Below, in pieces: positions 242-63,291 of a stretch of 64,000 nt of DNA (positions are counted from its first letter, which is position 1; each line of letters begins with the position of its first letter). The notes beneath the pieces were generated by a model that did no database searches, had not been told where the DNA came from, and was given only the letters and a program-made list of their open reading frames with translations. Made by a program: the position numbers and the translations under genes. Source of the stretch: Thiomicrospira pelophila DSM 1534. GTDB taxonomy: Bacteria > Pseudomonadota > Gammaproteobacteria > Thiomicrospirales > Thiomicrospiraceae. Location of the stretch: positions 1,984,001 to 2,048,000 of the forward strand of contig NZ_JOMR01000001.1 of the NCBI RefSeq assembly GCF_000711195.1. Reading direction: 5' to 3'.

Positions 242-1498
242 TTAGCGCGTATTTTCCGCTTGATTCTGTTGGATAAAGCTCAGCAAAAGTTTCGCTTGTT
301 GGATTTTAGATGACGGCGAAAGCGGCCATTCTTGATCTTGGGTGATCAACGTTAAAGCATTGTCATCGGTATCAAATCCGCGCCCGTCGCCCACTTGATT
401 GGCGCAAATCATATCCAAACTTTTACGCTGCAACTTGGCTTTGGCATGTTCCATCAACTGCTGAGTTTCAGCCGCGAAACCCACCACATAAGGTTTATCC
501 TTTTGCACCGTGACCCAGGCGATAATATCTGGGTTTTTAACCAGCTTGAGCTCTAACTCGTCTTGATTGGAGTCTTTTTTGATTTTGTGAGTGGCAGGAT
601 TGGCCACTCTAAAATCGGCTACCGCCGCCGCGCCAATCATGATATCGGCTTGTGCATAATTTTGTTTTACGGCTTCAAACATCTGCATGGCTGAACGTAC
701 GTCGATTCGCGTCACGCTTGGTGGCGTGGCCAGATTAACCGGTCCACTGATCAAAATTACTTTTGCACCCCATTCAGCCGCCGCCGCGGCGATCGCAAAC
801 CCCATTTTGCCAGAGCTGCGATTACCAATAAAACGTACCGGGTCTAGATCTTCATAGGTTGGCCCAGCGGTAATTAGTAGCGTTTTATCCGACCACCAGG
901 CCTGGTACTTATTCTTCACCAGGCCTGGTGCTTTGTCTGTATGAGCTGTCGTAACGGTTAGCTTGTCGATTTGCTGAACAATGTATTCAAAAATAGTGGC
1001 TGGCTCAGCTAAACGCCCCGCCCCCACTTCTCCACATGCCTGTTCACCCGACGCCGGCTCTATCATTTGCCAACCGCGTGCTTGTAAAGCCGTGACATTG
1101 TCCTGGGTGGCGGCATTCGTCCACATCAAACGATTCATCGCTGGTGCAAACAAAATCGGGCGGTCAGTGGCTAAACACAAAGTAGTTAACAAATCATTCG
1201 CCATGCCGGCGCGCAAACGTGCCAACACATCCGCTGAGGCGGGCGCAATAACGATCACATCCGCCCAGCGTGCTAGTTCAATATGCCCCATGCCGGCTTC
1301 TTGCTCGAGATCAAACAAGCTGTCGCGCACTTTATGACCGCACAAGGCTTGAAAGGATAAGGGTTGAATAAACTGCTTTGCGCCTTCCGTCATCACCACC
1401 TGCACTTGGTAGCCGGCTTTGACACATAAGCGCACCAATTCCAAGGCTTTATAGGCGGCGATTCCGCCTGACACACCGACCAACACTTTCATATTCAT
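242..1498 (-). CDS. coaBC: Bifunctional phosphopantothenoylcysteine decarboxylase / phosphopantothenate-cysteine ligase
   Basis: The 418-residue protein catalyses two cytosolic steps of coenzyme A synthesis: joining cysteine to 4'-phosphopantothenate (CoaB) and decarboxylating the product (CoaC). The N-terminal flavoprotein half shows GVSGGIAAYK near residues 8-17, the APAMNRLMW substrate motif near 118 and an ACGEVGAGRL flap containing the conserved cysteine. The C-terminal half shows ITAGPTYEDLDPVRFIGNRSSG near 210, GAAAVADFR and KIKK, as in CoaB. Length is normal. The linker between the halves, about residues 190-205, is partly encoded by two copies of a 12-bp palindrome. The start follows MNM; the second Met is nearly equivalent. 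The thioesterase and esterase genes lie just upstream in the same direction. Confidence 0.97.
   Translation of the reverse strand: MNMKVLVGVSGGIAAYKALELVRLCVKAGYQVQVVMTEGAKQFIQPLSFQALCGHKVRDSLFDLEQEAGMGHIELARWADVIVIAPASADVLARLRAGMANDLLTTLCLATDRPILFAPAMNRLMWTNAATQDNVTALQARGWQMIEPASGEQACGEVGAGRLAEPATIFEYIVQQIDKLTVTTAHTDKAPGLVKNKYQAWWSDKTLLITAGPTYEDLDPVRFIGNRSSGKMGFAIAAAAAEWGAKVILISGPVNLATPPSVTRIDVRSAMQMFEAVKQNYAQADIMIGAAAVADFRVANPATHKIKKDSNQDELELKLVKNPDIIAWVTVQKDKPYVVGFAAETQQLMEHAKAKLQRKSLDMICANQVGDGRGFDTDDNALTLITQDQEWPLSPSSKIQQAKLLLSFIQQNQAENTR
895..929. repeat. Two copies of palindrome ACCAGGCCTGGT inside coaBC
   Basis: Exact copies at 895-906 and 918-929, 23 bp apart start to start. They fall in the codons linking the CoaC and CoaB halves, read as KYQAWW and APGLV in two different frames. 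Each copy is self-complementary, and the two could also pair with each other. Confidence 0.95.
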
Positions 1499-2833: not shown

Positions 2834-4084
2834 ATGAACGACGTTTTTCACTACCAACAAAATCAGTTAATGGCCGAACAGGTCTCTTTAAGCGATTTGG
2901 CAAAACAATATGGTACACCGCTGTATGTGTACTCTCGCACCGAGCTGGAACAACGCTGGCAGGCGTTTGATCAGGCCTTTGGCACTCAGCCACACTTGGT
3001 ATGTTATGCAGTCAAAACCAACTCCAACGTAGCCGTCTTGCAAGTCTTAGCTCACTTGGGTTCAGGCTTTGATATTGTTTCACAAGGTGAACTCGAACGT
3101 GTATTACGTGCTGGTGGACAAGCTGATAAAGTCGTGTTTTCGGGTGTCGCTAAAAAAGAATCTGAAATTGAGCGTGCGTTGGAAGTCGGTATTCGTTGTT
3201 TTAATGTCGAATCGCATGCCGAGCTGGATCGCATCCAAACCGTTGCCAAACGTGTGAATAAAATCGCGCCCATCTCAATTCGAGTCAACCCAGATGTGGA
3301 CGCCAAAACCCATCCTTACATTTCAACTGGTTTGAAAGAAAACAAATTTGGCGTCGATATCCAAACCGCACCGGAACTTTATCAAACTGCGGCCGCTTGC
3401 TCTCATATCAAAGTGATCGGCATTGACTGCCATATTGGTTCGCAACTAACCGAAGTGCGGCCGTTTGTGGATGCGCTTAAAAAGGTTTTGCAACTTAAAC
3501 AACGTTTGGCCGATCAAGGGATTGAGATTCATCACTTAGATTTAGGCGGTGGGCTGGGGATTCGTTATACCGAAGAAAACCCGCCTGAGATTGCCGACTA
3601 CATCCAGGCGTTATTAAGCGAGCTGAATGATCCGACTATTGAAGTGATTATCGAACCGGGTCGTGCGATTGCGGGCAATGCTGGGGTATTAGTAACCGAA
3701 GTCGAATACTTAAAACCATCAGATCATAAGCATTTTGCCATTATTGATGCCGCCATGAACGACTTAATTCGTCCAGCCTTGTATCAAGCTTATCAACAAA
3801 TTATCCCACTCAACCCACGCACTGATGGTGTTGAGGCTCGCTGGGATTTAGTTGGCCCGGTCTGTGAAACCGGTGACTTTTTGGGGAAAGATCGCACACT
3901 TAATTTAAAAGCTGGCGACTTACTGGCGGTATTATCAGCGGGTGCTTATGGCTTCACCATGAGTTCAAACTATAATACACGTCCGCGGGCCGCCGAAGTG
4001 ATGGTGCAGAAGCACCAGGCCTGGTTAGTACGCCCACGTGAGACCTATCAAGACTTAATGGGCTCTGAAAAGCTACTCGACTAA
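2834..4084 (+). CDS. lysA: Diaminopimelate decarboxylase
   Basis: The 416-residue PLP enzyme converts meso-diaminopimelate to lysine, the last step of the pathway. YAVKTNSN near residue 60 contains the PLP-binding lysine, HIGSQ near 198 and EPGRAIAGNAG near 278 bind cofactor phosphate, and CETGDF near 347 supplies the catalytic cysteine of the partner subunit. It starts at ATG 2834 behind AAGGA. It follows lptM by 32 bp, but dapF and xerC, frequent downstream neighbours, are absent. It ends one base before the convergent gene. The C-terminal codons for HQAWL contain one exact copy of the palindrome at 4014-4025. Confidence 0.98.
   Translation: MNDVFHYQQNQLMAEQVSLSDLAKQYGTPLYVYSRTELEQRWQAFDQAFGTQPHLVCYAVKTNSNVAVLQVLAHLGSGFDIVSQGELERVLRAGGQADKVVFSGVAKKESEIERALEVGIRCFNVESHAELDRIQTVAKRVNKIAPISIRVNPDVDAKTHPYISTGLKENKFGVDIQTAPELYQTAAACSHIKVIGIDCHIGSQLTEVRPFVDALKKVLQLKQRLADQGIEIHHLDLGGGLGIRYTEENPPEIADYIQALLSELNDPTIEVIIEPGRAIAGNAGVLVTEVEYLKPSDHKHFAIIDAAMNDLIRPALYQAYQQIIPLNPRTDGVEARWDLVGPVCETGDFLGKDRTLNLKAGDLLAVLSAGAYGFTMSSNYNTRPRAAEVMVQKHQAWLVRPRETYQDLMGSEKLLD
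4014..4025. repeat. Palindrome ACCAGGCCTGGT in the 3' end of lysA
   Basis: Exact 12-bp copy read as HQAWL. From memory of related LysA proteins, the neighbouring residues align with a (D/H)QA(F/W) segment before the conserved R-R-E-T stretch without a gap, so the site appears to have arisen by substitution. Confidence 0.95.
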
Positions 4085-4085
4085 T

Positions 4086-5207
4086 TTAGTCTAACTCTGT
4101 TTTTTTTAAGCTCACCAACCACAACTCGACTTGCGTTTGCAACGCCGCGCTGGCAAGTTGATTGTCGGCTTGGCGCAAACGTCGAACCTTCGGGCTCGCC
4201 ACGTCTTGCTTATCCAATAACAAACCTACCGTCTGCCCCTCAAACAACCAAGCCCACAATTGTAACTTCGGCTGTGAATAATCTAACCACCAGGCCTGGT
4301 GCTGTTGACGGCTCAAGGCCTGCCATTCAGCGAGCTGCGTTAATAATTGGGGTTGGTTTGACAGCTCCACCTTAGTGGCTTGAGACGGCTGATCTAATGC
4401 TTGATTCAACCAGGCCTGGTATAGAGTTTCGACTTCGACCAAATATCGACATTCACCAATTTTATGGGTGACATCGGCTTCTCCGATAAATTCAGCCAAG
4501 CGATACACATCCTCCAACAAGGCGACCATTGACTGACATTGCATTGGTCGACAAGGCATGCGAGCCAAACTCTGATGCAAACGTTGTCCAATGAGTTCCG
4601 GAAAGCGTGCCGCCAAGGATAATGCCATCGAGTTAATACGCGGTAAGCTTTGTAATGAATTCAAGCGTCGTTCGTCCAATAAACAGACCTGCACTTGCTC
4701 TAATAACTCACTATTGACCTGGCGTAAACGTAGACTACGCAGAAACTTGAGGGTTTCGCTCTTGCCTGGCCAACCCAGCTTTTCAACCATATCCGTGCGT
4801 TTAGACTGAAAAAGAGCCACTCGCTCAGCTTCCGTCAAAGGCGCTCGCACTAACTCCCATGCCAGTAGAGGCGCATGGTCCAATAACTCCAACATTTGTG
4901 GATAACGACCGGCATAATGCAACAAGCTAAGCTGATGGCTAGGAAATAGCTGACAACTTTCCACCACCCATTTCGGAATCTGCTGTAACCAAAAGCGTAA
5001 CTCGCTATGAATCGACCAACTCAACACATCTAACGCGGGCGCATAATGCGGAATCGGTTCGGCCGATAACATCATTTGATCCCAACTCGGCAGGCGCAAC
5101 ACGCCTTTTTCCGGCCAAATCTGACGCAAATCTAACCAAAGCACTTGCTCTTCCAAATCCCAATAAAGTTTGCGCGAAAGTAAACGACTGTATTGACTGG
5201 GTTTCAA
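4086..5207 (-). CDS. Unrecognised 373-residue protein
   Basis: I do not recognise this family. The protein is rich in Leu, Gln and Trp, predicted soluble, with no signal peptide or transmembrane segment. It is probably mostly helical, as suggested by long runs such as FLRSLRLRQVNSELLEQV near 170. It contains several Trp residues and no obvious metal or nucleotide motif. The longest open frame begins with TTG at 5205-5207 behind a poor AGG; the next in-frame Met codons are around residues 45-46. It ends one base from lysA in a tail-to-tail arrangement. Two palindrome copies lie in its coding sequence, giving YQAWL and HQAWW. That it is a real gene is supported by length and by the lack of any competing frame. 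Confidence 0.7.
   Translation of the reverse strand: MKPSQYSRLLSRKLYWDLEEQVLWLDLRQIWPEKGVLRLPSWDQMMLSAEPIPHYAPALDVLSWSIHSELRFWLQQIPKWVVESCQLFPSHQLSLLHYAGRYPQMLELLDHAPLLAWELVRAPLTEAERVALFQSKRTDMVEKLGWPGKSETLKFLRSLRLRQVNSELLEQVQVCLLDERRLNSLQSLPRINSMALSLAARFPELIGQRLHQSLARMPCRPMQCQSMVALLEDVYRLAEFIGEADVTHKIGECRYLVEVETLYQAWLNQALDQPSQATKVELSNQPQLLTQLAEWQALSRQQHQAWWLDYSQPKLQLWAWLFEGQTVGLLLDKQDVASPKVRRLRQADNQLASAALQTQVELWLVSLKKTELD
4289..4300. repeat. Palindrome ACCAGGCCTGGT in the 373-residue gene
   Basis: Exact copy, extended to CACCAGGCCTGGTG (14 bp), read on the minus strand as HQAWW. Confidence 0.95.
4409..4420. repeat. Palindrome ACCAGGCCTGGT, second copy in the 373-residue gene
   Basis: Exact copy read on the minus strand as YQAWL, 120 bp from the previous one. 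Confidence 0.95.
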
Positions 5208-5406: not shown

Positions 5407-7983
5407 ATGAGACAAAACCTACCCGTAACCCAAAAACTAAAGCCAATTCCACAAAACTATCGTTTAGTCTCACGAACAGATACCGATGGCACGATTGTCG
5501 AAGCCAATGATGAGTTTATTGAAATTAGTGGTTATACCGAATCTGAGTTAATTGGTCAGCCACATAACTTATTGCGCCACCCAGATGTACCGCCTGCCGT
5601 TTTTAAAGATATGTGGCAAACTCTGCAGTCCGGCGAAGGTTGGACACAAATTGTTAAAAACCGCACTAAAAATGGCGATCATTATTGGGTCAAAGCAAAT
5701 GTGGCACCCGTTAAAAAACAAGATCAAATTACCGGTTATATTTCCGTCCGCATGCCAGCTACCGAAGCCGAAATAGAACTGGCCACCACGGCCTATCCCT
5801 TAATTAACAACGGACAACTGCTTATTAAAAAGGGACAGGTTTTTACGCCTTTACGTGCCAAGCTGGATAACCTGAACCCATTTAAGAATTGGTCGTTGTT
5901 GGCTAAGCTGAGTTTAGGCAATGTGATGTTATTGGGTTTGGCCGTATGGGTGATAGCTTGGATGCGAACTAGTGGCTTAAACCAACTCAACCAAACGGAT
6001 GCACCAGGCCTGGTGGCTGGCCAACTGCTTACCCAATTTGGCTGGCTCAGCATTCTATTACTGGTCGTTTTATCCACTTACTTTGCGATCATGAATTATG
6101 TATTGGTATCTCGGCCCTTACGTTCTTTACAAAAAATTATGCAATGCTCTCAGCGCACAGGCGATTTAAGCGTACGTGCCGTGGTTAAAAATCAAGATGA
6201 AATTGGTCAATTAGCCCGCACTTACAATCAACAAATGCAAAATATGCAGGTTGCAATTGGTGAAGCCGGACGCATGTTATCGGCGATTGCGCACGGTAGA
6301 CTCAGCGCCACCACCAGTATTCCTATGCAAGGCGACTTTGACCTACTCAAGGCCAGTACTAACCTTGCAACTCAGGCGATGCGTCAGACGACAGAAGAAA
6401 TAACAAAAGTATTACATGAGATTCGTAATGGTAACTTTAGTTACGAATCCAATACCGAGTTAGAAGGTGATTATCAACAAGCCGTTGAATATGGTCAAAC
6501 CGCTATGGTGACTCTGAAAGGCGTGTTTTTTGAAGTCAATGAGTTAATGGACCAGGTATCTGAAGGCTATTTTGAAAAACGTATTCATGCCGAAGCACAA
6601 GGCGAATTAAAGCACCTTAAAGACACTATAAACCAAACGTTGGATCAACTTGAAAAAGCCATCGCTGAAACCACGCAAGTCATGGTCGCTCAAGGCTCTG
6701 GTGATTTGACCAAACGCATACATCTTCCGCTTCACGGCACTTTGAGCATTTTAAAAGATGGGGTCAACAATGCGACTTCAAATGTATCCAGCCTGATGTC
6801 TCAGTCTAACTTTTCAGTACTACGTTTATCAGAAGGCACCAACCGCATTTCGGTTGGCATTCAAGACCTCGCTCAACGCACCCAGCAACAAGCCGCCTCA
6901 CTCGAAGAAACCGCCGCTAGTATGGAACAAATCACCTCGACAATCCGCCAAACGGCCGATAATGCTCGACAGGCTCAGGGCTTATCTGATCAATCACGCC
7001 GTGAGGCTTCTAACGCCAATCAGGTAGTCAAACAGACCATTGACGCAATTCATGAAATCAATGACTCAAGTAGTAAAATTGGCGAAATCACTAACCTTAT
7101 TGATAGCATTGCTTTTCAAACCAATTTACTGGCTTTGAATGCGGCTGTAGAGGCGGCCAGAGCAGGTGATCATGGTCGCGGTTTTGCAGTCGTCGCTTCG
7201 GAAGTTCGCAGCTTAGCCCAAAAATCGGCCGAAGCGGCTAAACAAATCAAAACCTTAATTGACGACACCTTAATCAAAGTTCAGCAAGGCACTGAACTCG
7301 CCAATCAATCTGGCCAAGCAATTGATGTCATCAACCACTCAATAGAACAAGTCAGCCAAATTATTGATGAAATAAACCAGGCTACTACCGAACAATCCCA
7401 AGGGGTTGAACAGGTGAATAATGCGATATCTTCAATTGACACGGCTACTCAGCAAAATGCCACACTGGTTGAGGAAACCGCACAACAAACACAGCAAATG
7501 ACTCGTTATGCGAACGAAGTTATTGAACTATCAAAAATGTTCAAGATTGATTTAAAGGAGATTAATTTTGAAACCGCCATGCAAACGGGTCAATTTGCTT
7601 TTGCACAAGCTCGCCGTGCGCATCAACAATGGAAAGGGTTGATTACCGCTTATATTGCAGGCATGGACGTTGGCTTAAACTTAGAGGCCGCGACCAATCA
7701 CACGAAATGTGGCTTAGGAAAATGGTTCTATAGCGCAGAAGGACAAAAGTACGCTCATCTGACAGAAATGAAGCAGGTAGAAACATGGCATGAAGAGCTA
7801 CATAAAACCATTAAGCGCATTCTCACTGCACACGACAACCAAGACTTAGCGCTCATAGAAGGCGAGTTTATAAAACTGGATGAATGCAGTGAACAAGTCA
7901 TTAAATACCTAACCGAGGCTGAATTAGCGGTCAAGAATTTAGAATCAGCTCATGCCAAATCTTTGGGTCATACAACTAAATAA
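5407..7983 (+). CDS. Aer-like chemoreceptor: PAS, two TM segments, HAMP array, MCP signalling domain, CZB domain
   Basis: An 858-residue methyl-accepting chemotaxis protein. A PAS domain spans about residues 18-118 ([35 protein letters not shown]), as in redox-sensing Aer. Membrane segments lie near 165-185 and 211-233, separated by a very short periplasmic loop, so sensing is likely cytoplasmic. HAMP-like units follow from about 235 to 450. The signalling hairpin near 560-615 contains [32 protein letters not shown]. The C-terminal CZB domain (about 728-815) shows the H...C-x-x-G-K-W...H...H zinc pattern ([24 protein letters not shown]). It lacks the C-terminal CheR-tether motif seen in the other two receptors here. 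One palindrome copy lies in the periplasmic loop (APGLV). It probably signals redox or oxygen state, and an FNR-type box precedes it. Confidence 0.93.
6003..6014. repeat. Palindrome ACCAGGCCTGGT in the PAS chemoreceptor gene
   Basis: Exact copy (CACCAGGCCTGGTG over 14 bp), read as APGLV in the short loop between the two membrane segments. Confidence 0.95.
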
Positions 7984-27409: not shown

Positions 27410-30400
27410 TTAAAGCTCTGAATCTTCGGGTTCGATAACACGGTCATCTACAACCGGCATCTCTTCCAGAATATCTTCACTCACACTCTCTTCTTCATAA
27501 TCATTTTGAATAAACGCACGCAACTCGCCATCCGCTATATCACTTGCCTTCTTACGAGCTTGGTGATAAGCGAAGCCTGTTCCAGCAGGAATTAGACGAC
27601 CCACAATAACGTTCTCCTTCAAACCAACCAAGGTGTCTCGCTTACCGCTAACCGCAGCTTCGGTTAGTACGCGAGTTGTTTCTTGGAATGAAGCCGCCGA
27701 GATAAATGACTCTGTCGCAAGTGAAGCTTTTGTAATACCAAGCAGAACACGCTCAAAACTAGCTTCCACTTTACCTTCTGCTCGCATTTTTTCATTTAAC
27801 TCTAAAACACGCGCATATTCAGTTTGCTCTCCCTTAATAAGACCGGTGTCTCCAGCTGCACGTATTTCAACTTTACGCAACATTTGGCGAATAATCGCCT
27901 CAATATGCTTATCGTTAATACGCACGCCCTGCAACCTATAAACATCCTGAACTTCATCAACAATATATTCTGCAAGGCGCTCTACACCCAATAGACGAAG
28001 AATGTCGTGTGCGTTCGAATTACCTTCTACAATAATATCACCACGCTCAACACGCTCACCTTCGAACACATTAACCGTACGCCATTTCGGAATTAGGGTT
28101 TCATACTGTTCGCTAGAATCTTGCGTAATAATTAAGCGCTGCTTCCCTTTGGTTTCTTTACCAAACGAAATTACGCCACTTACTTCTGCCATGATTGCTG
28201 GTTCTTTTGGCTGTCGTGCTTCAAATAAGTCAGCAACACGCGGTAGACCACCGGTAATATCTTTTGTTTTTGAAGACGCTTGCGGAATACGCGCTAAAAC
28301 GTCACCTGATACAACCTGAACACCTGATTGCACAAGTACAATCGAGTTCTCTGGTAAGTAATAGACTGCTGGGGTCTGTGTCCCTGCAAAACAAGTACTC
28401 TCTCCCTTATCATCTAATAAACGTATGAAAGGACGAGCATCTTTAACCGAGCTTGAGCGTTCTTTAGCACCTTTTACAACGCGAGTTACCAGGCCTGTTA
28501 ATTCATCAACACGCTCTTCAACTGTACCTTCAAAGTTTCCGAACTCAATTTGACCGCTTACTTCAGTGATAACTGGGTGAGTATGCGGATCCCAACTTGC
28601 AATACTCTGACCAGAGGTTAGCTTCTGACCCTCAGTAACCTCTAGAATGGCGCCATAAGGCACTTTATAACGTTCTTTCTCACGGCCTGCATCATCTAAA
28701 ATAGTGACCTCACCAGAGCGCGTTGTAACCATTACCTTATCTTCAGAGTTTTTAACTGTTTTAAGATTATGGAACTTAACGGTACCTTCGTACTTAACTT
28801 CAACCTGGCTTTGCGCCGCTGTCTGCGAAGCAGTACCCCCAATATGGAAAGTACGCATTGTCAACTGAGTACCAGGCTCACCAATCGACTGAGCAGCCAT
28901 TACACCCACAGCTTCACCCATGTTAACTAGGTGACCACGTGCCAAGTCTCGGCCATAACATTTTTGACACACACCAAATTTTGTTTCACACGTAATAGTG
29001 GATCTAACTTTCACGCGATCAATACCATGCGTATCAATGAGAGCCACTAAGCTTTCGTCTAGCAGAGTACCGGCTGCAACTATACATCCACCCTTAGCAT
29101 CAAGTACATCATCACTTAAAACACGTCCGAGAATACGCTCGCGTAGGGATTCAATTACATCACCACCCTCAACATGCGCGGTCATTTCAACTCCGCTATC
29201 TGTACCGCAGTCATTTTCTGTCACAACCACATCTTGAGCGACATCTACTAAACGACGTGTCAAATAACCAGAGTTAGCCGTCTTCAATGCCGTATCTGCC
29301 AAACCTTTACGAGCACCATGTGTAGAAATAAAGTACTGTAAAACGTTTAGACCTTCACGGAAGTTGGCTGTAATGGGGGTTTCAATGATGGAACCATCAG
29401 GTTTTGCCATCAAGCCACGCATACCACCAAGCTGACGCATCTGCGCGACCGAACCACGAGCACCAGAGTCAGCCATCATATAGATTGAGTTAAACGAACT
29501 TTGTTTAACCTCTTCACCTTCAGTGGTTGTAACCATGTCATATTGCAACTCTTCCATCATGGCTTTTGTTACAAGTTCATTTGTGTGCGACCAAATATCA
29601 ACAACTTTGTTATAGCGCTCACCCTCAGTAACCAGACCCTGTGAATACTGCGACTGAATTTCTTTAACTTGATCTTCAGCACGCTCAAGAATTCCCGCTT
29701 TTTCATCAGGAATCAACATATCATCTGAACAGAAAGATAAACCAGCCATCGTTGACCACTTAAAACCAGCGTACATCAATTGGTCAGCAAAAATAACTGT
29801 TTCTTTTGGACCAAGTACGCGGTAACAGGTATTTAAGACCTTACTGATGTTCTTCTTTGTCAAATTAGTGTTCAAAAGATCAAACGATAAACCTTTTGGC
29901 AAAATTCTGCATAACAAAGCACGACCAACAGTTGTATCGACAATGCGAGTACTTACATGCTCTTTATCATCTTCAACAATTGTCTCTTCAACTTTGAGTT
30001 TGATCTTAGTGTGCAAATGGACAACTTTAGCTTCCTGTGCTCTTACCACTTCCTGCCAGTTTGAAAAAGCTTTGCCTTCTCCAATCGAATTGATGCGCTC
30101 ACGCGTAATGTAATATAAGCCAAGTACAACGTCTTGTGATGGCACAATAATTGGCTCACCATTGGCTGGTGACAGCAGGTTGTTGGTCGACATCATTAAT
30201 GTGCGAGCTTCAAGCTGTGCTTCAAGCGACAATGGAACATGCACGGCCATCTGGTCACCATCGAAGTCAGCGTTAAAGGCAGAACAAACCAAAGGATGCA
30301 AATTAATAGCTTTGCCTTCAATCAACACAGGTTCGAATGCCTGAATACCAAGACGGTGAAGTGTTGGAGCGCGGTTCAATAATACAGGATGCTCACGAAT

Positions 30401-31645
30401 GACTTCATCCAACACATCCCATACTTCAGGCAAGCCTTGCTCAACCATTTTTTTAGCGGCTTTAATTGTTGGTGCAGCACCACGTTTTTGCAACTTACTA
30501 AAAATGAATGGTTTAAATAACTCTAACGCCATCTTTTTAGGTAAACCACACTGGTGCAATCTCAAAGTAGGCCCTACAACAATGACCGAACGTCCAGAAT
30601 AATCAACACGCTTACCAAGTAGGTTCTGACGGAAACGACCCTGCTTACCTTTGATCATATCAGCCAAAGACTTTAACTGGCGCTTGTTGGTGCCAGTTAC
30701 AGCACGGCCACGACGACCATTATCCAACAACGAATCTACGGCTTCTTGAAGCATACGTTTTTCGTTACGAACAATAATATCTGGTGCCATCAAATCTAAT
30801 AAGCGCTTAAGACGGTTATTACGGTTAATTACTCGGCGATATAAGTCGTTAAGATCCGAAGTTGCAAAACGCCCACCATCAAGTGGAACTAATGGTCTAA
30901 GTTCAGGAGGCAATACTGGAAGAACTTCCAATACCATCCATTCTGGATTATTTCCAGACGACAAGAAGGATTCAATTAGCTTTAGACGCTTACTAACTTT
31001 CTTTTGCTTTGTTTCAGAAGTGGTCGTTTCAACCTCACCTCTTAAACGTGCAGCTTCTTCTGCTAGATCAATAGACTTAAGCATGCGTTTAATAGCTTCG
31101 GCACCCATTTGTGCTTCAAATTCATCACCATGCTCTTCTAATGCATCTAAATACTCTTCTTCCGTCAGTAGCTGCCAAGGCTCTAAGGGAGTTAGACCTG
31201 GATCAACTACCATAAAAGCTTCGAAGTATAAAACAGCTTCGATTTCTTTTAATGTCATATCCAGCATCAAACCAATACGTGACGGAAGAGACTTCAAGAA
31301 CCAAATGTGAGCAACCGGTGTGGCCAAGTCAATATGACCCATACGCTCACGACGCACTTTAGACTGAGTTACTTCAACACCACACTTTTCACAGATGACA
31401 CCACGATGCTTTAATCGCTTGTACTTACCACACAAACATTCATAGTCACGAATTGGACCAAAAATCTTGGCGCAAAATAAGCCATCACGTTCAGGCTTAA
31501 AAGTACGGTAGTTAATGGTTTCTGGTTTTTTTACTTCACCATATGACCAAGAACGAATCTTTTCAGGAGAAGCAAGAGATACCTTAATGGCATCAAATTC
31601 ACTAGAAACGTTTTGTTTTTTTAGAAAACCGAGTAAGTCTTTCAT
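27410..31645 (-). CDS. rpoC: RNA polymerase beta' subunit
   Basis: The 1411-residue catalytic subunit has the N-terminal zinc site [20 protein letters not shown] near 70-89, the Mg-chelating [12 protein letters not shown] near 458, the bridge-helix region around [24 protein letters not shown] near 730 and a second zinc cluster [13 protein letters not shown] near 890. It overlaps rpoB by TAATG. A one-mismatch copy of the 12-bp palindrome occurs at 28488-28499. Confidence 0.99.
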
Positions 31646-40894: not shown

Positions 40895-42211
40895 ATGCAA
40901 TCATCGAATTTTGATCAACAACATATTTGGCATCCTTATAACAAACTACCTTCCAGTCATTTGCAACTTGAGGTCGCTTCTGCAGAAGGTAGCCTGATTA
41001 CACTTCAAGATGGCCGCAAACTGCTTGATGCTATGTCGTCTTGGTGGTCGAGTATTCATGGCTATAATCATCCGGCCATTAACCAGGCCGCAATTGATCA
41101 AATTCAAACCTTATCTCACATTATGTTTGGTGGCTTCACTCACCAGCCAGCCATCCAGTTGGCAAGAAAATTAATTGAGATTAGCCCGGCTGGTTTAGAA
41201 AAAATATTCTTTGCAGATTCCGGCTCAGTGTCAGTCGAAGTTGCGCTTAAAGTCGCATTGCAATACTGGAAAAGTAAACAGCGCCCTGAGAAGAATCGAT
41301 TCCTGGCTTTGCAACACGCTTATCACGGTGACACGTTTGGCGCCATGTCGGTGTGCGACCCGATTGAAGGCATGCATCATCTATTCAGTAACAACCTTAT
41401 GCCCAACTACTTTGCGCCAGCTCCACAACCAGGCCTGGTGGTTGAAGACAATCACGACATTCAAGCACTCGAATCTTTATTTGAGCAACATCACACAGAA
41501 CTCGCGGCTTTTATTTTGGAACCATTGGTTCAAGGTGCCGGAGGTATGCGGTTTTATCGCCCAGAATACATCAAACGTGCGCGTGAATTGTGCGATCAAT
41601 ATGAGGTATTGTTAATTGCAGATGAAATTGCCACAGGGTTCGGCCGTACTGGCAAATTATTTGCATGTGAGTGGGCTCACATTTCGCCAGATATTATGTG
41701 TATTGGCAAAGCTCTAACTGGCGGCTATATGACATTGGCCGCCATGCTTTGTACACAGGAGATAAGTGACACCATTAGCCAACAAAACCCCGGACTTTTG
41801 ATGCATGGCCCAACCTTTATGGGCAACCCGCTCGCCTGCCGCATCGCACTCGCCAGCTTGGAGCTACTGTTAAGCCAGGATTGGCAAAACCAAGTCAAGC
41901 TAATCAGCACACACTTAACCCAAGCTTTCGAACCCTTGAAGCATTACCAAGAAGTCAGAGATATACGAGTGTTAGGGGGTATTGGGGTGATCGAATTAAC
42001 ACGCGATGATTTAAGTTACGCGATCCAACAAGCTGCAATTGAAAACGGCGTGTGGTTAAGACCCTTTGGTCGCCTGGTTTATACCATGCCGGCTTATAAT
42101 ATTTCAGCCGACAATTTACAGGCTTTAAGCCAAGGGATTAGCAACGCGGTATCGCACGTACTATCTACCCAACCATCTGGCGAGGCGACCTTAAGCGATC
42201 AGTTTGTATAA
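40895..42211 (+). CDS. bioA: Adenosylmethionine-8-amino-7-oxononanoate aminotransferase
   Basis: The 438-residue PLP enzyme makes 7,8-diaminopelargonate in biotin synthesis, using S-adenosylmethionine as amino donor. HIWHPYNK near 10 and MSSWWSSIHGYNHP near 47 are BioA-specific. FADSGSVSVEVALK near 107 binds cofactor phosphate, LIADEIATGFGRTG near 239 holds the PLP aspartate, and CIGKALTGGYMTLAA near 270 the Schiff-base lysine. It is divergent from the tRNA operon. The other biotin genes are not adjacent; bioD is 9 kb away. One palindrome copy encodes PGLV near residue 180. Confidence 0.97.
   Translation: MQSSNFDQQHIWHPYNKLPSSHLQLEVASAEGSLITLQDGRKLLDAMSSWWSSIHGYNHPAINQAAIDQIQTLSHIMFGGFTHQPAIQLARKLIEISPAGLEKIFFADSGSVSVEVALKVALQYWKSKQRPEKNRFLALQHAYHGDTFGAMSVCDPIEGMHHLFSNNLMPNYFAPAPQPGLVVEDNHDIQALESLFEQHHTELAAFILEPLVQGAGGMRFYRPEYIKRARELCDQYEVLLIADEIATGFGRTGKLFACEWAHISPDIMCIGKALTGGYMTLAAMLCTQEISDTISQQNPGLLMHGPTFMGNPLACRIALASLELLLSQDWQNQVKLISTHLTQAFEPLKHYQEVRDIRVLGGIGVIELTRDDLSYAIQQAAIENGVWLRPFGRLVYTMPAYNISADNLQALSQGISNAVSHVLSTQPSGEATLSDQFV
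41428..41439. repeat. Palindrome ACCAGGCCTGGT in bioA
   Basis: Exact copy, flanked AACC...GGTGG, read as QPGLVV. Confidence 0.95.
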
Positions 42212-42218
42212 CAATAAT

Positions 42219-43073
42219 CTAAAGCGCATCTAATAAGTATTGCGGCAAAGCAAAGCAGGCCTGGTGCAAGCCTGGATTATAATAGCGAGTTTTAAAACCT
42301 GCTTGCTGATAGCGGGCTTGTAGCGAATTCAAATCGAGTCCGTTTGGTTTTAAATCCTGAGAAGCCCAAGCAAAAGTCATAATTCCGCCCACATAAGTCG
42401 GCACCGCCGCACTATAAAATCCGACCTTTTCAAACAAGGGTGACAAGCGTTGTTCAGACGTTAATACTTCATCAGTTTGCAAAAAGCTCACACCATTTTG
42501 TGCCACAAACACGCCACCCGAATTTAAACAGCGCTTAATGCCTGTGTAAAAACGTGAAGTAAATAACACTTCGCCCGGCCCGACCGGATCGGTGGAATCG
42601 GAAATAATCACATCAAACGACAAATCAGTGTCGTTAACAAACGCCACGCCATCACCGATCACCAGATTCAAACGTGCATCGTCAAACGCGCCATCCGAAT
42701 GCTTAGGGAAGTAGGTTTTACACATCTCAACCACTTGAGCATCGATCTCTACCTGAGTCACACTTGTGACACTTGAGTGTTTTAATACCTCACGTAAAAT
42801 CCCGCCATCACCGCCGCCGATAATCAATACTGACTTGGGTTCTGGATGCGTAAACATCGGAACATGTGTCAACATCTCGTGATAAATAAATTCATCACGC
42901 TCGGTGGTTTGAATCATGCCGTCTAACGCCATCACCCGCCCCCATTGCGCATTCTGAAAAATCACTAAATGCTGATGTTCGGTTTTGGCTTCAAACAACA
43001 CCTCGTCCATCACAAAGGATTGACCCCAGGCCTGGTGCAGGGTTTCGAGATAACGCGGCTTGGCTTGAGTCAC
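42219..43073 (-). CDS. speE: Spermidine synthase
   Basis: The 284-residue aminopropyltransferase makes spermidine from putrescine and decarboxylated [27 protein letters not shown] near 46 and [15 protein letters not shown] near 86 form the nucleotide site, and [15 protein letters not shown] near 155 carries the catalytic aspartate. It starts with GTG at 43073, directly after the speD stop, so speDE are coupled. LHQAWGQ near residue 11 is encoded by a one-mismatch palindrome copy (43025-43036). A second one-mismatch copy lies near the 3' end (42254-42265). Confidence 0.97.
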
Positions 43074-44085: not shown

Positions 44086-44134
44086 AACAACCAGGCCTGG
44101 TGCTTGAAAATTCAAACCACCAGGCCTGGTTGTT
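44086..44134 (-). terminator. Long hairpin built from two palindrome copies, after trpC
   Basis: AACAACCAGGCCTGGTG (44086-44102) is the exact reverse complement of 44118-44134. The intervening bases contain TTGAA and TTCAA, which extend the stem to about 22 pairs. The 12-mers are at 44090-44101 and 44119-44130. On the minus strand TTTTGG follows. It begins eight bases after the trpC stop and probably ends the trp transcript. Confidence 0.75.
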
Positions 44135-44936: not shown

Positions 44937-45955
44937 TAAATGGCCTGTGTAAATTGTATAAATTGATCAAGTTTTTGCTGTGCCAGGCCTTGTGCAATCG
45001 CGCCACGAGCAAGCAATACACCTTCAGCAAAACTGTTTGAAATGCCGGCTACATACAAGGCCGCCCCCGCATTTAAACAAATAATATCTTTCGCCGCGCC
45101 GTCTGAATTGTTAAACGCCGCCCGAATAATATTCAAACTTTGTTGCGCCGAGTCTACCGCCAGGCCTTCTAAACTGACATGATCCATGTCATATTCTTGA
45201 GGATCAATCGTCCACTCCCGAATCTGGCCGTTTTTAAGCTCAGCCACATGCGTTGGACAAGTCACTGAAATCTCATCCAAGCCATCTTCCGCATGCACTA
45301 CCATGACGTGCTCCGAGCCCAACTGCTTTAACACTTCGGCAAATGGCACTAACAAATCGCGATCATACACACCCAAGACTTGATAAGGCGCTTGCGCTGG
45401 ATTGGTAAGCGGACCTAGCACGTTAAAAATCGTACGCACACCCAATTCTTTACGTGCGGCTACCACATGCTTCATTGCGCCATGATGTGCTGGCGCAAAC
45501 ATAAAGCCTACCCCAACCTGTTCGACGCAAGCCGCCACCTGATTCACACTTAAGTTTAAATTTACACCAGCTGCTTCTAACACATCGGCACTACCGGACT
45601 TGCTTGATACCGAACGGTTGCCGTGTTTTGCTACGCGCGCACCCGCGGCAGAAGCGACAAATGCGGTCGCCGTGGAAACATTAAAAATGTTCGCGCCATC
45701 GCCGCCGGTGCCGCAGGTATCAACCAAATGACTACGGTCATCTAACTCCACACGAGTCGATAAATTTCGCATTACTTGGGCGGCGGCGGCTATCTCTTCA
45801 ATGGTTTCGCCCTTCATGCGCAACGCCATCAACAAGCCACCAATTTGCGCATCGGTCGCCTCGCCGGACATCAAGGTTTGCATCACCGACTGCATTTCGG
45901 AACCATTCAAGTTTTCACGTTTTAATAACCGAGTTAGAGCTTCCGAAAGTGTCAT
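44936..45955 (-). CDS. trpD: Anthranilate phosphoribosyltransferase
   Basis: The 339-residue enzyme transfers phosphoribose from PRPP to anthranilate. [24 protein letters not shown] near 79 binds PRPP and [21 protein letters not shown] near 107 the substrates. Not fused to trpG. ATGA overlap with trpG. Confidence 0.98.
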
Positions 45956-48866: not shown

Positions 48867-49571
48867 TTAAGCCTTAGCCAATTCTTCACGCATTTGCTTA
48901 ATAATGCTGTCGTAACGGTTGGCGTCACTCGCGTTTTCTTTACCGAAAATACCGGAACCTGATACAAACGTATCACAACCTGCGGCCGCGACTTCAGCGA
49001 TGTTTTCAGCTTTTACGCCACCGTCAATTTCTAAACGGATCTCTTGACCACTCGCATCAATTAACTTGCGAGCTTCACGCAACTTGTCTAATGCACGCGG
49101 AATAAACGCTTGACCACCAAAACCAGGGTTAACCGACATAATCAAAATCATGTCAATCTTATCCATCACATGATCCAAATAACTTAAAGGCGTACCCGGG
49201 TTAAACACCAGGCCTGCTTTACAACCTTCTGCTTTGATTAATTGCAATGTACGGTCGATATGCTCAGACGCTTCTGGGTGGAAGGTAATAATGTCTGCGC
49301 CCGCGCTGGCGAAATCGCCAATCAAACGATCGACCGGCTTCACCATTAAATGCACATCAATCGGGGCTTTAATATCTTCGCGCACCATAAACTTCTTTAA
49401 CGATTCACACACCAACGGGCCAATCGTTAAGTTCGGCACATAGTGGTTATCCATTACATCAAAGTGCACCACGTCCGCACCCGCAGCCAATACATCTTTT
49501 ACATCTTTGCCCAACTGTGCAAAATCCGCTGATAAAATAGACGGTGCGATCCAATTTGCTTGCTTAGCCAT
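48867..49571 (-). CDS. rpe: Ribulose-phosphate 3-epimerase
   Basis: The 234-residue TIM barrel interconverts ribulose-5-P and xylulose-5-[33 protein letters not shown] near 34 with the metal-binding His-Asp, [31 protein letters not shown] near 145 and [12 protein letters not shown] near 180 are all family motifs. First gene of the apparent rpe-gph-trpEGDC operon. Confidence 0.98.
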
Positions 49572-50181: not shown

Positions 50182-51062
50182 ATGCGTTGTATGAATCCAA
50201 CCTGACCAGTTTAAAACTGCTTAACCGTGGGAAAGTGCGCGATATTTACGACCTAGACACTGAGCATCTACTCATTGTCACCACTGACCGCGTCTCCGCG
50301 TTTGATGTGATTTTACCCACACCCATTCCGGGCAAAGGACGCATTCTGAGCGAAACCGCCCAGTTTTGGTTCAAACGCACCCAAAACATTCTCCCCAACC
50401 ATATCGCCAACGACTTAATGCTGGCCGATTACCTAACACCCGACGAACTCCAACAGCTCGATGGGCGCGGGGTGATTGTGCGCAAATTCAAACCCCTGCC
50501 GGTCGAAGCGATCGTGCGCGGCTATTTAGTCGGTTCCGGCTGGCAAGAATACAAACAACACCAAAGTGTGTGCGGCATCGCCTTACCACCAGGCCTGGTG
50601 CAAGCCCAACAACTACCTGAGCCCATCTTTACGCCATCAAGCAAAGCCGAAGTGGGCGATCACGACGTTAACATTAGCTTCGACGAGATGAGTCAACTGA
50701 TTGGCGAAACCAAAGCCAACCAAGTGCGCGACTTTAGTTTACAACTTTATAAACAAGCCGCTGAGTTTGCGCTTGAGCGTGGCATTATTATTGCCGACAC
50801 CAAATTTGAATTTGGCGAAGATCATAATGGAAACATTTATTTAATCGACGAAGCCCTCACGCCTGACAGCTCACGTTTCTGGCCGGCTTCTAGTTACTCG
50901 CCAGGCCAAAATCCGCCTAGTTTCGACAAACAATATATTCGGGATTATCTAGAAACCCTAGATTGGAATAAAACCGCCCCCGGCCCAGAACTGCCCACTG
51001 AAGTGGTGAATAAAACCCTCGAAAAATACCAAGAAGCCAAAGCGCGCTTAACTGAAAATTAA
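50178..51062 (+). CDS. purC: Phosphoribosylaminoimidazole-succinocarboxamide synthase (long form)
   Basis: The 294-residue enzyme joins aspartate to CAIR in purine synthesis. GKVRDIYDL near 14, TDRVSAFDVILPTPIPGKG near 37, RGYLVGSGWQEY near 114 and PEPIFTPSSKAEVGDHD near 147 are SAICAR synthetase motifs; length matches the yeast-like form instead of the 240-residue enteric form. GGAG precedes the ATG. The palindrome at 50588 encodes PPGLV at a site where relatives have a similar PxGL. Confidence 0.97.
   Translation: MNALYESNLTSLKLLNRGKVRDIYDLDTEHLLIVTTDRVSAFDVILPTPIPGKGRILSETAQFWFKRTQNILPNHIANDLMLADYLTPDELQQLDGRGVIVRKFKPLPVEAIVRGYLVGSGWQEYKQHQSVCGIALPPGLVQAQQLPEPIFTPSSKAEVGDHDVNISFDEMSQLIGETKANQVRDFSLQLYKQAAEFALERGIIIADTKFEFGEDHNGNIYLIDEALTPDSSRFWPASSYSPGQNPPSFDKQYIRDYLETLDWNKTAPGPELPTEVVNKTLEKYQEAKARLTEN
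50588..50599. repeat. Palindrome ACCAGGCCTGGT in purC
   Basis: Exact copy (CACCAGGCCTGGTG over 14 bp), read as PPGLV. Confidence 0.95.
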
Positions 51063-51081: not shown

Positions 51082-51735
51082 ATGTCTAATACAACCAGGC
51101 CTGGTGGTTATTTTATTACCGGCACCGACACCGAAATTGGCAAAAGCCACATCGCCTGCTGTATAGCGATGGGACTGATTCAGCAAGGTCACACGGTCGC
51201 GCCCCGCAAACCGATTGCCTCCGGTTGTATTAAACAACCGGACGGCTCATTGCTCAGTGTAGACGCCTACCGCCTTCAACAAGCCAGCCAAACCCATGAT
51301 TCGCTACAAACCATTTGCCCTTATCAATTTGAAGCCCCTATTTCACCGGCCCGCGCGATTCGCCAAGCCAATCAAACGATTGGTCTAGAAGATCTAAAAC
51401 AAACCTGCCAAGCCCCCGCTTCTCAGTTTTTATTGGTCGAAGGCGCAGGCGGGTTTTTATCGCCCTTGTGTGATAACGCCTTAAATGCGGATTTAGCCGC
51501 GCAACTCCAACTTCCCATCATCTTAGTAGTCGGCAATCGACTAGGCTGCATTAACCATGCCCTTTTAACGGTCGAGGCGATTCAACAACGCGGCCTCAAA
51601 CTCGCCGCGATCCTGCTCAACGATATTCAAGCCGACAGCGACCTAGATAACCTAACCGACTTAAAAAACCTCCTACCAAATCAACATATTATCCACCAAC
51701 CCCATCAAGCTAAACCCACCGCTATTTTGCTTTAA
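51082..51735 (+). CDS. bioD: Dethiobiotin synthetase
   Basis: The 217-residue ATP-dependent carboxylase forms the ureido ring of dethiobiotin. The P-loop GTDTEIGKS is near residue 14 (Ser replaces the usual Thr), KPIASGC near 40 binds diaminopelargonate, and VEGAGGFLSPL near 118 is the family motif. It follows purC by 19 bp. The palindrome lies near the start of the coding sequence, giving TRPGGY just before the first strand. Confidence 0.95.
   Translation: MSNTTRPGGYFITGTDTEIGKSHIACCIAMGLIQQGHTVAPRKPIASGCIKQPDGSLLSVDAYRLQQASQTHDSLQTICPYQFEAPISPARAIRQANQTIGLEDLKQTCQAPASQFLLVEGAGGFLSPLCDNALNADLAAQLQLPIILVVGNRLGCINHALLTVEAIQQRGLKLAAILLNDIQADSDLDNLTDLKNLLPNQHIIHQPHQAKPTAILL
51094..51105. repeat. 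Palindrome ACCAGGCCTGGT at the start of bioD
   Basis: Exact copy 12 bases into the gene, read in a third frame as TRPGG. Being at the start of translation, a hairpin here could affect initiation. Confidence 0.95.
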
Positions 51736-53043: not shown

Positions 53044-53059
53044 CCACCAGGCATGGTGG
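53044..53059. repeat. Degenerate palindrome copy between porin and dnaJ-like gene
   Basis: CCACCAGGCATGGTGG differs from the repeat by one base. The change converts a loop-free palindrome into CCACCA/TGGTGG with a GGCA tetraloop, so the hairpin is kept. It lies between convergent genes. Confidence 0.8.
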
Positions 53060-56809: not shown

Positions 56810-56821
56810 ACCAGGCCTGGT
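56810..56821. repeat. Palindrome ACCAGGCCTGGT between convergent helicase and chemoreceptor genes
   Basis: Exact copy within CACCAGGCCTGGTG. It is the only strong inverted repeat in the 57-bp space between two converging stops, so it may act as a bidirectional terminator, although T-runs are missing. Confidence 0.9.
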
Positions 56822-62201: not shown

Positions 62202-63230
62202 TTATAGTGTGAGAATAGTGAACAATTCTCGAATCACCACCGTGGCGTAGCGCCCCGGTGCCAAGCTAAAATCGACTTGTAATGTTTGATTATCGACCCA
62301 TTGCCAGTTCAGTTTTTTGGGCAAAACCCGCAAAGCGCGGCGCTCTTGTTTTAAACCTAAATCCGCAAGGGCTTGGTACCAGGCCTGGTACTTGGTGAGC
62401 ACTTGGGTTTCGAGCTTGAGTGCGGCCTGCTGTGTGGCTAATTCCCCTGCCCCCACCAGTGCGCCGGTAGGGTGAATATCAAGTTCATTTACACGCTCGA
62501 TTAATTCGTTCGACGCATCGTCCACAAACCATTTATCCGAGCCTTCCAACTGAAATACATCGCCCGGCCAGGCCTGGTTCCAAGCTTGTTGGCGTACGCG
62601 CTCGGCTAAAATTTCGTTAAAAATAAACGAACGCGCGGATGAGATATAGAGGCTGCGTTGCGCCGGTTTTAAACGCGTGAGTTCGCCGTCAAAAAAACGC
62701 TGCGCCATGACGAGATTATGTTCGTTTCGACCAAAACGTTGCTCACCAAAATAGTTGGGCACACCTTGGGTTTGAATTTGCTCTAGACGTTGTTCGATTT
62801 CGGCTTGATCACCGCTCACGTCTCGCAAAGTGAGAATAAACCGATTACCACTTAAGCCGCCCGTTTGCAGCTTGCGTTGGTGACGCGTGTGTTTGAGGAT
62901 GCGCATGGAATCAAATTGAAATGCGGCAAAATCCGGATTTTCGCGCCCAGGCAGATATAGACTGAACCATTGGCGCGTAATACCGTGACGGTCTTTTAAC
63001 CCGGCGTAGCCAATATCGCGCAATCGAATGCCCGCCCATTTGGCTAAGTGTTGCGCGGCCCAATCGGTGTTTTCGCCTTGTTTTTCAACCCATAACCATA
63101 AATGTTCGCCTTCACCACTGAGCGAATAAGCAATGGTTTCTTCGACTTGAAAGTCAGCCGGTTCGGATTTAATACGGGCTTGAGCATTGGGTACGCCATA
63201 AGCGTAAGGCAGGGTTGAATAGTGGGACAA
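62202..63230 (-). CDS. truD: tRNA pseudouridine(13) synthase
   Basis: The 342-residue enzyme modifies U13 of tRNA-Glu. GYAGLKDRHGITRQWFSLYLPG near 74 contains the catalytic aspartate, and VPNYFGEQRFGRNEHNL near 151 is the TruD signature. The start is TTG at 63230; no in-frame ATG exists at a suitable place, and the N-terminus (AxIKSEPADFQVEE) aligns well with relatives. One exact palindrome (62378) and one one-mismatch copy (62567) lie in the gene. Confidence 0.95.
   Translation of the reverse strand: MSHYSTLPYAYGVPNAQARIKSEPADFQVEETIAYSLSGEGEHLWLWVEKQGENTDWAAQHLAKWAGIRLRDIGYAGLKDRHGITRQWFSLYLPGRENPDFAAFQFDSMRILKHTRHQRKLQTGGLSGNRFILTLRDVSGDQAEIEQRLEQIQTQGVPNYFGEQRFGRNEHNLVMAQRFFDGELTRLKPAQRSLYISSARSFIFNEILAERVRQQAWNQAWPGDVFQLEGSDKWFVDDASNELIERVNELDIHPTGALVGAGELATQQAALKLETQVLTKYQAWYQALADLGLKQERRALRVLPKKLNWQWVDNQTLQVDFSLAPGRYATVVIRELFTILTL
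62378..62389. repeat. Palindrome ACCAGGCCTGGT in truD
   Basis: Exact copy within TACCAGGCCTGGTA, read as KYQAWY in a poorly conserved region. A GCCAGGCCTGGT variant at 62567-62578 lies 189 bp upstream in the gene. Confidence 0.95.
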
Positions 63231-63250: not shown

Positions 63251-63291
63251 ACCAGGCCTGGTTACTTCAATTAGCACCAGGCCTGGTGCTA
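63251..63291 (-). repeat. Pair of palindromes between the lipoprotein gene and truD
   Basis: Exact copies at 63251-63262 and 63276-63287. The second is part of a 20-bp perfect palindrome, TAGCACCAGGCCTGGTGCTA (63272-63291). It starts 18 bases after the lipoprotein stop and 21 bases before the truD start, so it may terminate the former. No T-run follows. Confidence 0.9.

Follow-up and report, generated by a model that had tools for sequence, protein, structure and literature searches.

A palindromic, possibly uptake-type DNA motif that appears to arise by point substitution in the genes of Thiomicrospira and its relatives

The 12-letter palindrome ACCAGGCCTGGT recurs through the 64-kb window, by which we mean the whole stretch of DNA analyzed here (positions 1984001-2048000 of the genome G000), and gap-free alignments of SpeE, of the window sites, of G000/G005 orthologs, and of ortholog pairs across the family support an origin of its coding copies by point substitution in pre-existing sequence and not by transposition. 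We give a rough probability of 0.5 to the reading that the motif, which is palindromic in most motif-rich lineages, serves as a DNA-uptake-sequence-like self-recognition watermark. This function we infer from the substitution origin, the coding share, the gene-end enrichment, the steep optimum, the clade dialects, and the A-tract flanks, which together form the pattern of uptake sequences. The motif accumulates by point substitution wherever protein constraint permits and is thereafter kept at the DNA level. Under the uptake reading, the type IV pilus/ComEC competence machinery would have a surface receptor that prefers motif-bearing DNA, incoming conspecific DNA would recombine, and better-matching alleles would be over-transmitted; this over-transmission would fill the genome with copies while each clade drifted to its own dialect.

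The copies of ACCAGGCCTGGT in the window are not due to chance. Fifteen exact copies were found where an order-2 Markov model predicts 0.0055, and allowing up to two mismatches gave 22 matches. Across the complete genome (2,108,215 bases, ~2.1 Mb) the palindrome occurs 613 times and its reversed string, used as a control, does not occur at all; each of 28 genomes from outside the family had 0 or 1 copies of the 12-mer. The optimum is steep, with few near-misses. A sample of G000 contained 147 perfect copies, 54 with one mismatch, and 35 with two mismatches compared to 19 expected, and showed no excess of matches at three to five mismatches. One two-mismatch match in the window, at 44982, was omitted from the site list as probable chance. 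The window also contains 22 kb (6015-28487) without any copy, even at up to two mismatches, including a run of short minus-strand ORFs that form a putative ribosomal-protein cluster; a copy-free stretch of this kind would be expected if proteins under strong conservation have no space for the motif.

The speE gene, encoding spermidine synthase (42219..43073, minus strand; NCBIfam NF002010, E 7e-117, and TIGR00417), harbors a copy at 43025..43036 that matches the 12-mer at 11/12 positions within the peptide LHQAWGQ. The plus strand reads CCCAGGCCTGGT and the speE coding (minus) strand ACCAGGCCTGGG, in the frame CAC CAG GCC TGG GGT for H-Q-A-W-G. The initial annotation had attributed the only mismatch to a base needed for a conserved glycine codon, and this proved right: it is the first position of the Gly codon that departs from the 12-mer, and glycine is kept there in 108 of 110 SpeE sequences. 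Escherichia coli SpeE (L057) has LHDQFGQ at the site, with the same length and flanks, as the initial annotation had given it. All 110 fetched sequences, a set of 80 named loci and 30 family loci with two genomes in both, aligned over the seven-residue segment without a gap. The residues following LH vary among them, and the two changed residues, Q and A, occupy variable columns flanked by conserved ones. Within the genus, LHQAWGQ is found in G000, G002, and G004, given as ACCAGGCCTGGG / CACCAGGCCTGGGG, and the other six of the nine genomes have LHPSWGQ, again gap-free; the site has three mismatches to the 12-mer in G005 and one in G000. A second speE copy (42254..42265, 11/12, peptide HQACF) shows the same ACCAGGCCTGCT in six of eight congeners, with G007 and G008 differing from the 12-mer by 2-3 mismatches. 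A search of plasmids for speE returned nothing of use.

Alignments at the window's ORF sites gave a similar result. For 16 ORF matches (at most two mismatches), each compared with up to eight congeners, a hand count of rows found 63 of 67 site-by-genome pairs gap-free, the first seven sites being compared only with G005 stretches or distant matches. The four gapped pairs were two in coaBC, one with a distant chemoreceptor match, and one in bioA (G008, two residues). Gene names (coaBC, lysA, bioA, speE, rpe, purC, bioD, and truD) were taken from NCBIfam. Both coaBC copies are exact, lie in variable stretches, and are gapped against G005 (895..906, YQAWW; 918..929, APGLV). The exact lysA copy (4014..4025) reads HQAWLVRP as the initial annotation had stated, but G005 shares the motif there (NQAWLVRP, 12/12 bases). 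An ORF without an NCBIfam match (4086-5207) contains two exact copies: HQAWW at 4289..4300, common to G005, and YQAWL at 4409..4420, which in G005 is YRTWL with four mismatches and no gap. The chemoreceptor-like ORF has an exact copy (6003..6014, APGLV) whose matches are distant only, gapped in G004 and gap-free in G008. A 1411-aa ORF (27410-31645), probably rpoC, carries LTGLV at 28488..28499 (11/12).

The exact bioA copy (41428..41439, QPGLV) is common to G002 and G003 and is gapped only against G008. The rpe copy (49207..49218, 11/12, KAGLV) and the exact purC copy (50588..50599, PPGLV) are gap-free in 8/8 congeners; relatives have PAGL, QPGLV, or AAGLS at the purC site, and the PAGL expected of them is correct for G001, G005, and G007. 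At the bioD N-terminus an exact copy (51094..51105, TTRPG) is gap-free in the four congeners matched and gapped against G005 in the separate G000/G005 ortholog comparison. The truD gene has an exact copy (62378..62389, YQAWY) that is also exact in G001, G002, and G003, and an 11/12 copy (62567..62578, NQAWP) that is exact in G002 and NQAC in G001 and G007. Further exact copies form two close pairs, one at 44090..44101 (outside ORFs as called) and 44119..44130 (intergenic), the other at 63251..63262 and 63276..63287 (both intergenic). Single intergenic copies were found at 53046..53057 (11/12) and, between convergent genes, at 56810..56821 (exact). Elsewhere in the same genome, the RlmD gene (L205 17640-18917, corresponding to G000 1841640-1842917) carries the motif as the peptide DHQAWW, a short way ahead of its DAVLLDPGR segment.

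Two broader comparisons also support an origin by substitution. The first used 212 reciprocal best orthologs of G000 and G005, about a fifth of each genome, in which 58 of 68 rows (45 G000 copies and 23 G005 copies) were gap-free, or 47 of 57 distinct coding copies with 11 exactly shared sites sitting in both row sets. None of the gaps resembled a motif-sized insertion. Gaps were present at 7 of 45 G000 sites, compared to 3.6% of background five-residue windows and 7.7% of windows matched for flank identity (p = 0.08), a small excess such as loose loops would give; loops may account for it, possibly together with other causes. Flank identity was 0.56 at motif sites and 0.73 in control windows. 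The sites lie in variable stretches, and the description of the palindrome as lying over conserved positions fails as a general rule.

The second comparison covered the speE neighborhoods of 30 family genomes, with 60 sites in 17 genomes and 1106 directed ortholog pairs that are non-independent. Here 930 pairs were gap-free and 176 gapped, with 3.75% of control windows gapped. By site, 41 of 60 had no gapped ortholog and nine were gapped against most of their orthologs, a G038 site among them against all 21; with the nine removed, gaps fell to 33 of 936 pairs, about the control level. In 117 of the 176 gapped pairs the ortholog had no part of the site. In 108 of these the site falls in an N- or C-terminal extension (5 to 97 residues), of a kind that can result from mechanical choice of starts; the other nine are internal gaps of 9-15 residues, and no gap is four residues long. 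Where the partner had at least three mismatches, residue identity was 52% at the sites compared to 74% in the background. Three testable sites of the separate dialect of G029 had no gapped ortholog.

These alignments bear directly on the possibility that a small mobile element of MITE or REP type inserts the copies. Hundreds of near-identical copies, the longer perfect palindromes that enclose some intergenic ones, and the nine mostly gapped sites are in its favor. We nevertheless consider it very improbable, given the gap-free alignments, the prevalence of terminal extensions and lack of any four-residue insertion among the fully gapped pairs, the scarcity of constant sequence past ~20 bp, and the large share of copies within ORFs. 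Transposition as the source of the coding copies is ruled out by the alignments, and the initial proposal of point substitution is upheld.

Once present, the copies are kept at the DNA level. In a 464-kb sample of G000, the tripeptide QAW was found 88 times where 9.9 were expected (9-fold excess) and was coded CAGGCCTGG in 74 of the 88, though CAG accounts for 31% of Gln codons and GCC for 30% of Ala codons. In the same sample, PGL occurred 85 times (42.5 expected), 50 of them coded CCAGGCCTG, and TRPG 13 times (0.9 expected), 11 of them being the motif. The reversed tripeptides, used as controls, were not raised (WAQ 11, 9.9 expected; LGP 24, 42.5 expected). By mechanical ORF calls, 105 of 147 copies lie wholly in ORFs, in frames used 58, 36, and 11 times, and 38 touch no ORF. 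Among the gap-free G000/G005 sites, 11 of 38 were identical at 12/12 bases compared to 2.1% expected (p = 2e-10), and perfectly conserved motif sites were in 14-fold excess over equally variable windows. Codon choice and this identity together point to a DNA-level cause. The earlier suggestion of selection at the DNA level is thus sustained as regards upkeep of the DNA sequence, but selection and biased uptake or conversion (molecular drive) are indistinguishable here. An opposite order of cause, in which the peptides QAW, PGL, and TRPG are selected and the DNA repeat merely follows, would suit the unequal use of the three frames. Its likelihood is close to nil, considering the predominant coding of QAW as CAGGCCTGG, the unraised WAQ, and the copies outside any ORF; a protein-level repeat is ruled out by codon usage.

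The fullest form of the motif, AA[C/G]C-ACCAGGCCTGGT-G[G/C]TT, was observed in intergenic copies. The consensus is two-fold symmetric over 20 bp, with a mean arm extension of 2.5 bp in intergenic and 0.86 bp in coding copies, and there is little sequence constancy beyond ~20 bp. Intergenic copies favor convergent gene spacers (16 in 4.9 kb) over divergent ones (5 in 12.0 kb; binomial p = 1e-5), and the longer perfect palindromes centered on some of them could act as terminators. Over 280 kb the copy spacing is random-like (CV 0.88; random 0.99, 95% range 0.83-1.19), and even spacing was rejected. The symmetric consensus, fuller in intergenic DNA, and the excess of perfectly conserved sites would also be consistent with a selected chromosomal site for an abundant, probably dimeric cytoplasmic protein of nucleoid, segregation, repair, or global regulatory function. 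Substitution would then supply the copies and purifying selection maintain them, with the dialects tracking changes in the protein. We regard this explanation as rather unlikely, since the copies have no regular placement, divergent (promoter) spacers are poor in them, directional dialects exist, and several sampled relatives show no comparable motif.

The motif was counted in 62 genomes of the family, comprising Hydrogenovibrio, Thiomicrorhabdus, and the window's genus (nine genomes). The core CAGGCCTG is bimodal, with 236-1173 copies in 32 genomes, here called motif-rich, and at most 74 in the 30 called motif-poor; all nine genomes of the window's genus are motif-rich. The related dialect cores are ACCAGGCCTGGT, [A/G]CAGGCCTG[T/C], AACAGGCCGGGT, and CCAGG[C/T]TGGG. 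Six of the motif-poor genomes have other dialects (G029, G030, G032, G034, G027, and G078), and nine more of the 30 were sampled. G029 contains a differently spaced palindrome, ACCGGCCGGT, 1025 times, with 15 in the next highest genome. A directional ATCTRCCAGGYTGGG occurs 288, 289, and 339 times in G030, G032, and G034, respectively, and at most once elsewhere. G027 has a directional AAAACT-AACAGGCCGGGT, the last ten bases of which were found 41 times in 160 kb, and the same ten bases 4 times in 11 kb of G078; these CAGGCCGGGT counts refer to the stretches sampled.

The A-tract of the directional form is located roughly one helical turn upstream, and its register ahead of CAGG is shared by G027 and the G030/G032/G034 group; G023 shows a weaker symmetric A-tract trace in 8 copies. 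In 160 kb of G027, the directional motif forms four close pairs (<60 bp), every one of them inverted, with starts 18-24 bp apart. The directional form is mostly outside ORFs (coding 6/21 in G030/G032/G034 and 16/41 in G027) and could be a separate element whose core is similar; an Rfam search of six directional-motif stretches identified tRNAs only.

As judged from a tree of 32 genomes (11 genes, 2930 columns), the dialects largely follow the gene tree, with two exceptions. G083 carries AGCAGGCCTGCT within a clade of ACCAGGCCTGGT genomes, and G005 is mixed, its ACC..GGT (39), AGC..GGT (44), and AGC..GCT (13) counts matching independent half-sites by hand arithmetic. Some nodes are weak (0.24, 0.35, and 0.50), and the tree does not place the two directional groups as sisters. 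A motif of comparable abundance was found neither in the 80 to 100 kb sampled from G043, G074, and G089 nor in 20 to 40 kb of G010, G016, G042, and G082. Other words were observed in some of the relatives: weak k-mers in G010/G043 (CGGTACCG); a different word, GTCCCCGACTTT, with five occurrences in 40 kb of G014 (L219/L220), a relative of 61% GC; and words like CCGGTTGCCAGT up to 15 times in 100 kb of G035 (L223, L224, and L299-L301), perhaps sitting inside one long repetitive gene. Tentatively, and at slightly less than even odds, we propose an unreported uptake-type watermark that is family-wide and has been repeatedly remodeled, being palindromic in most lineages, directional with an A-tract in others, exchanged in one genome for some thousand copies of a differently spaced palindrome, and apparently gone from several.

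Over-represented palindromes scattered through genes, as found here, are also characteristic of HIP1-type repeats. For cyanobacteria, Elhai 2015 ties iterated palindromes to methyltransferases of the same specificity (PMC4390886). By this route, a DNA methyltransferase matching the motif, together with mismatch or very-short-patch repair, would ratchet sequences toward the palindrome, leaving the copies as a mutational by-product. The motif parallels those HIPs in being palindromic, GC-rich, present in hundreds of copies, and replaced by clade-specific alternates, and it contains two adjoining CCWGG sites. However, methyltransferases of the two families tested do not follow the motif. No association with motif abundance was found among the 62 genomes, counting sub-cut-off matches as present, either for the C5 family PF00145 (11 of 32 rich and 13 of 30 poor genomes, p 0.60) or for PF01555 (13 of 32 and 11 of 30, p 0.80).

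PF00145 is present in 0/9 genomes of the window's genus, neither family was found in 13 of the 32 motif-rich genomes or in G029 with its 1025 ACCGGCCGGT, Vsr was detected in two of the 32, and the sole PF01555 match of G000, a weak one, is RlmD, an rRNA enzyme. As far as these two families show, we consider a HIP1-type origin improbable. Two specific candidates were rejected: m5C methylation with very-short-patch repair at the CCWGG sites, as the nine genus genomes gave no C5 methyltransferase or Vsr match, and PF01555 N4/N6 methyltransferases as a shared cause, given the lack of a link with abundance and the identity of the G000 match. In G043 (L145, L130), a Vsr match with an in-frame TAG stop lies ~1 kb from a C5 methyltransferase match and is possibly decaying. 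In the draft relative G026, C5 methyltransferase gave nine matches, of which several are partial, and CAGGCCTG is absent.

The uptake reading has in its favor hundreds of copies above expectation, an origin by substitution, and dialects that are clade-specific apart from G083 and G005. ComEC, the one competence gene tallied, was found in 31 of 32 motif-rich and 25 of 30 motif-poor genomes and does not discriminate between them. GspH/FimT (PF12019), considered as a receptor candidate, was detected in three of 62 genomes, all motif-poor. Literature searches on transformation or DNA uptake in Hydrogenovibrio, Thiomicrorhabdus, and Thiomicrospira, and with the 12-mer itself, found no report of the motif. 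Perfect palindromes are atypical of both DUS and USS, and such symmetry would fit a protein that binds DNA as a dimer; it is the worst-fitting point of the uptake reading and also what would make the motif new.

If this reading is true, the motif would be the first palindromic uptake sequence that we know of, and the family would provide a natural series of dialect switches. The best-known uptake sequences come from two bacterial families, and it is still debated how a genome comes by a thousand copies or exchanges them for others. The present family includes genomes with identical, related, and switched dialects and some with apparently none, and certain sites are shared, so that drive could be set against selection and the rate of turnover measured. 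The motif also runs counter, as regards the two families tested, to the linking of iterated palindromes with DNA methyltransferases, and offers a practical lead toward making sulfur-oxidizing autotrophs transformable.

Among known repeats, HIP1 (GCGATCGC) and the alternate HIPs of cyanobacteria, as described in PMC4390886, are alike in their GC-rich palindrome, high copy number, and alternates in some genomes, whereas the motif here shows no association with the two DNA methyltransferase families and has directional relatives. REP/BIME and MITE elements are palindromic, high in copy number, and often located at gene 3' ends; unlike them, the motif is mostly coding and has no insertion signature. 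The USS has AT-rich flanks, which the AT-rich stretch beside the core in some relatives here resembles.

The USS of Pasteurellaceae (AAGTGCGGT type), as described in PMC1626085, is alike in its hundreds of mostly genic copies, its substitution origin, and its clade variants. In Haemophilus influenzae, that account gives a coding share of 65%, near the 105/147 found here, and a substitution test in which 24% (115/474) of protein alignments had gaps, mostly outside the core. The substitution origin of such motifs is thus already known for Haemophilus uptake sequences. Unlike the USS, the present motif is palindromic in most motif-rich lineages, has an unrelated core, and belongs to a different family, and its uptake role is a proposed one. 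The DUS of Neisseriaceae, with its ComP receptor and its dialects, differs in the absence of such a palindrome and in abundance, several DUS dialects having 2245-5918 copies (PMC3630211) compared to 236-1173 core copies here. The same paper describes dialects that largely track the core-gene tree with small steps between some of them, inverted close pairs, a link to gene ends with a terminator association that resembles the preference for convergent pairs, and some family genomes without any abundant repeat, all of which are alike in the system described here.
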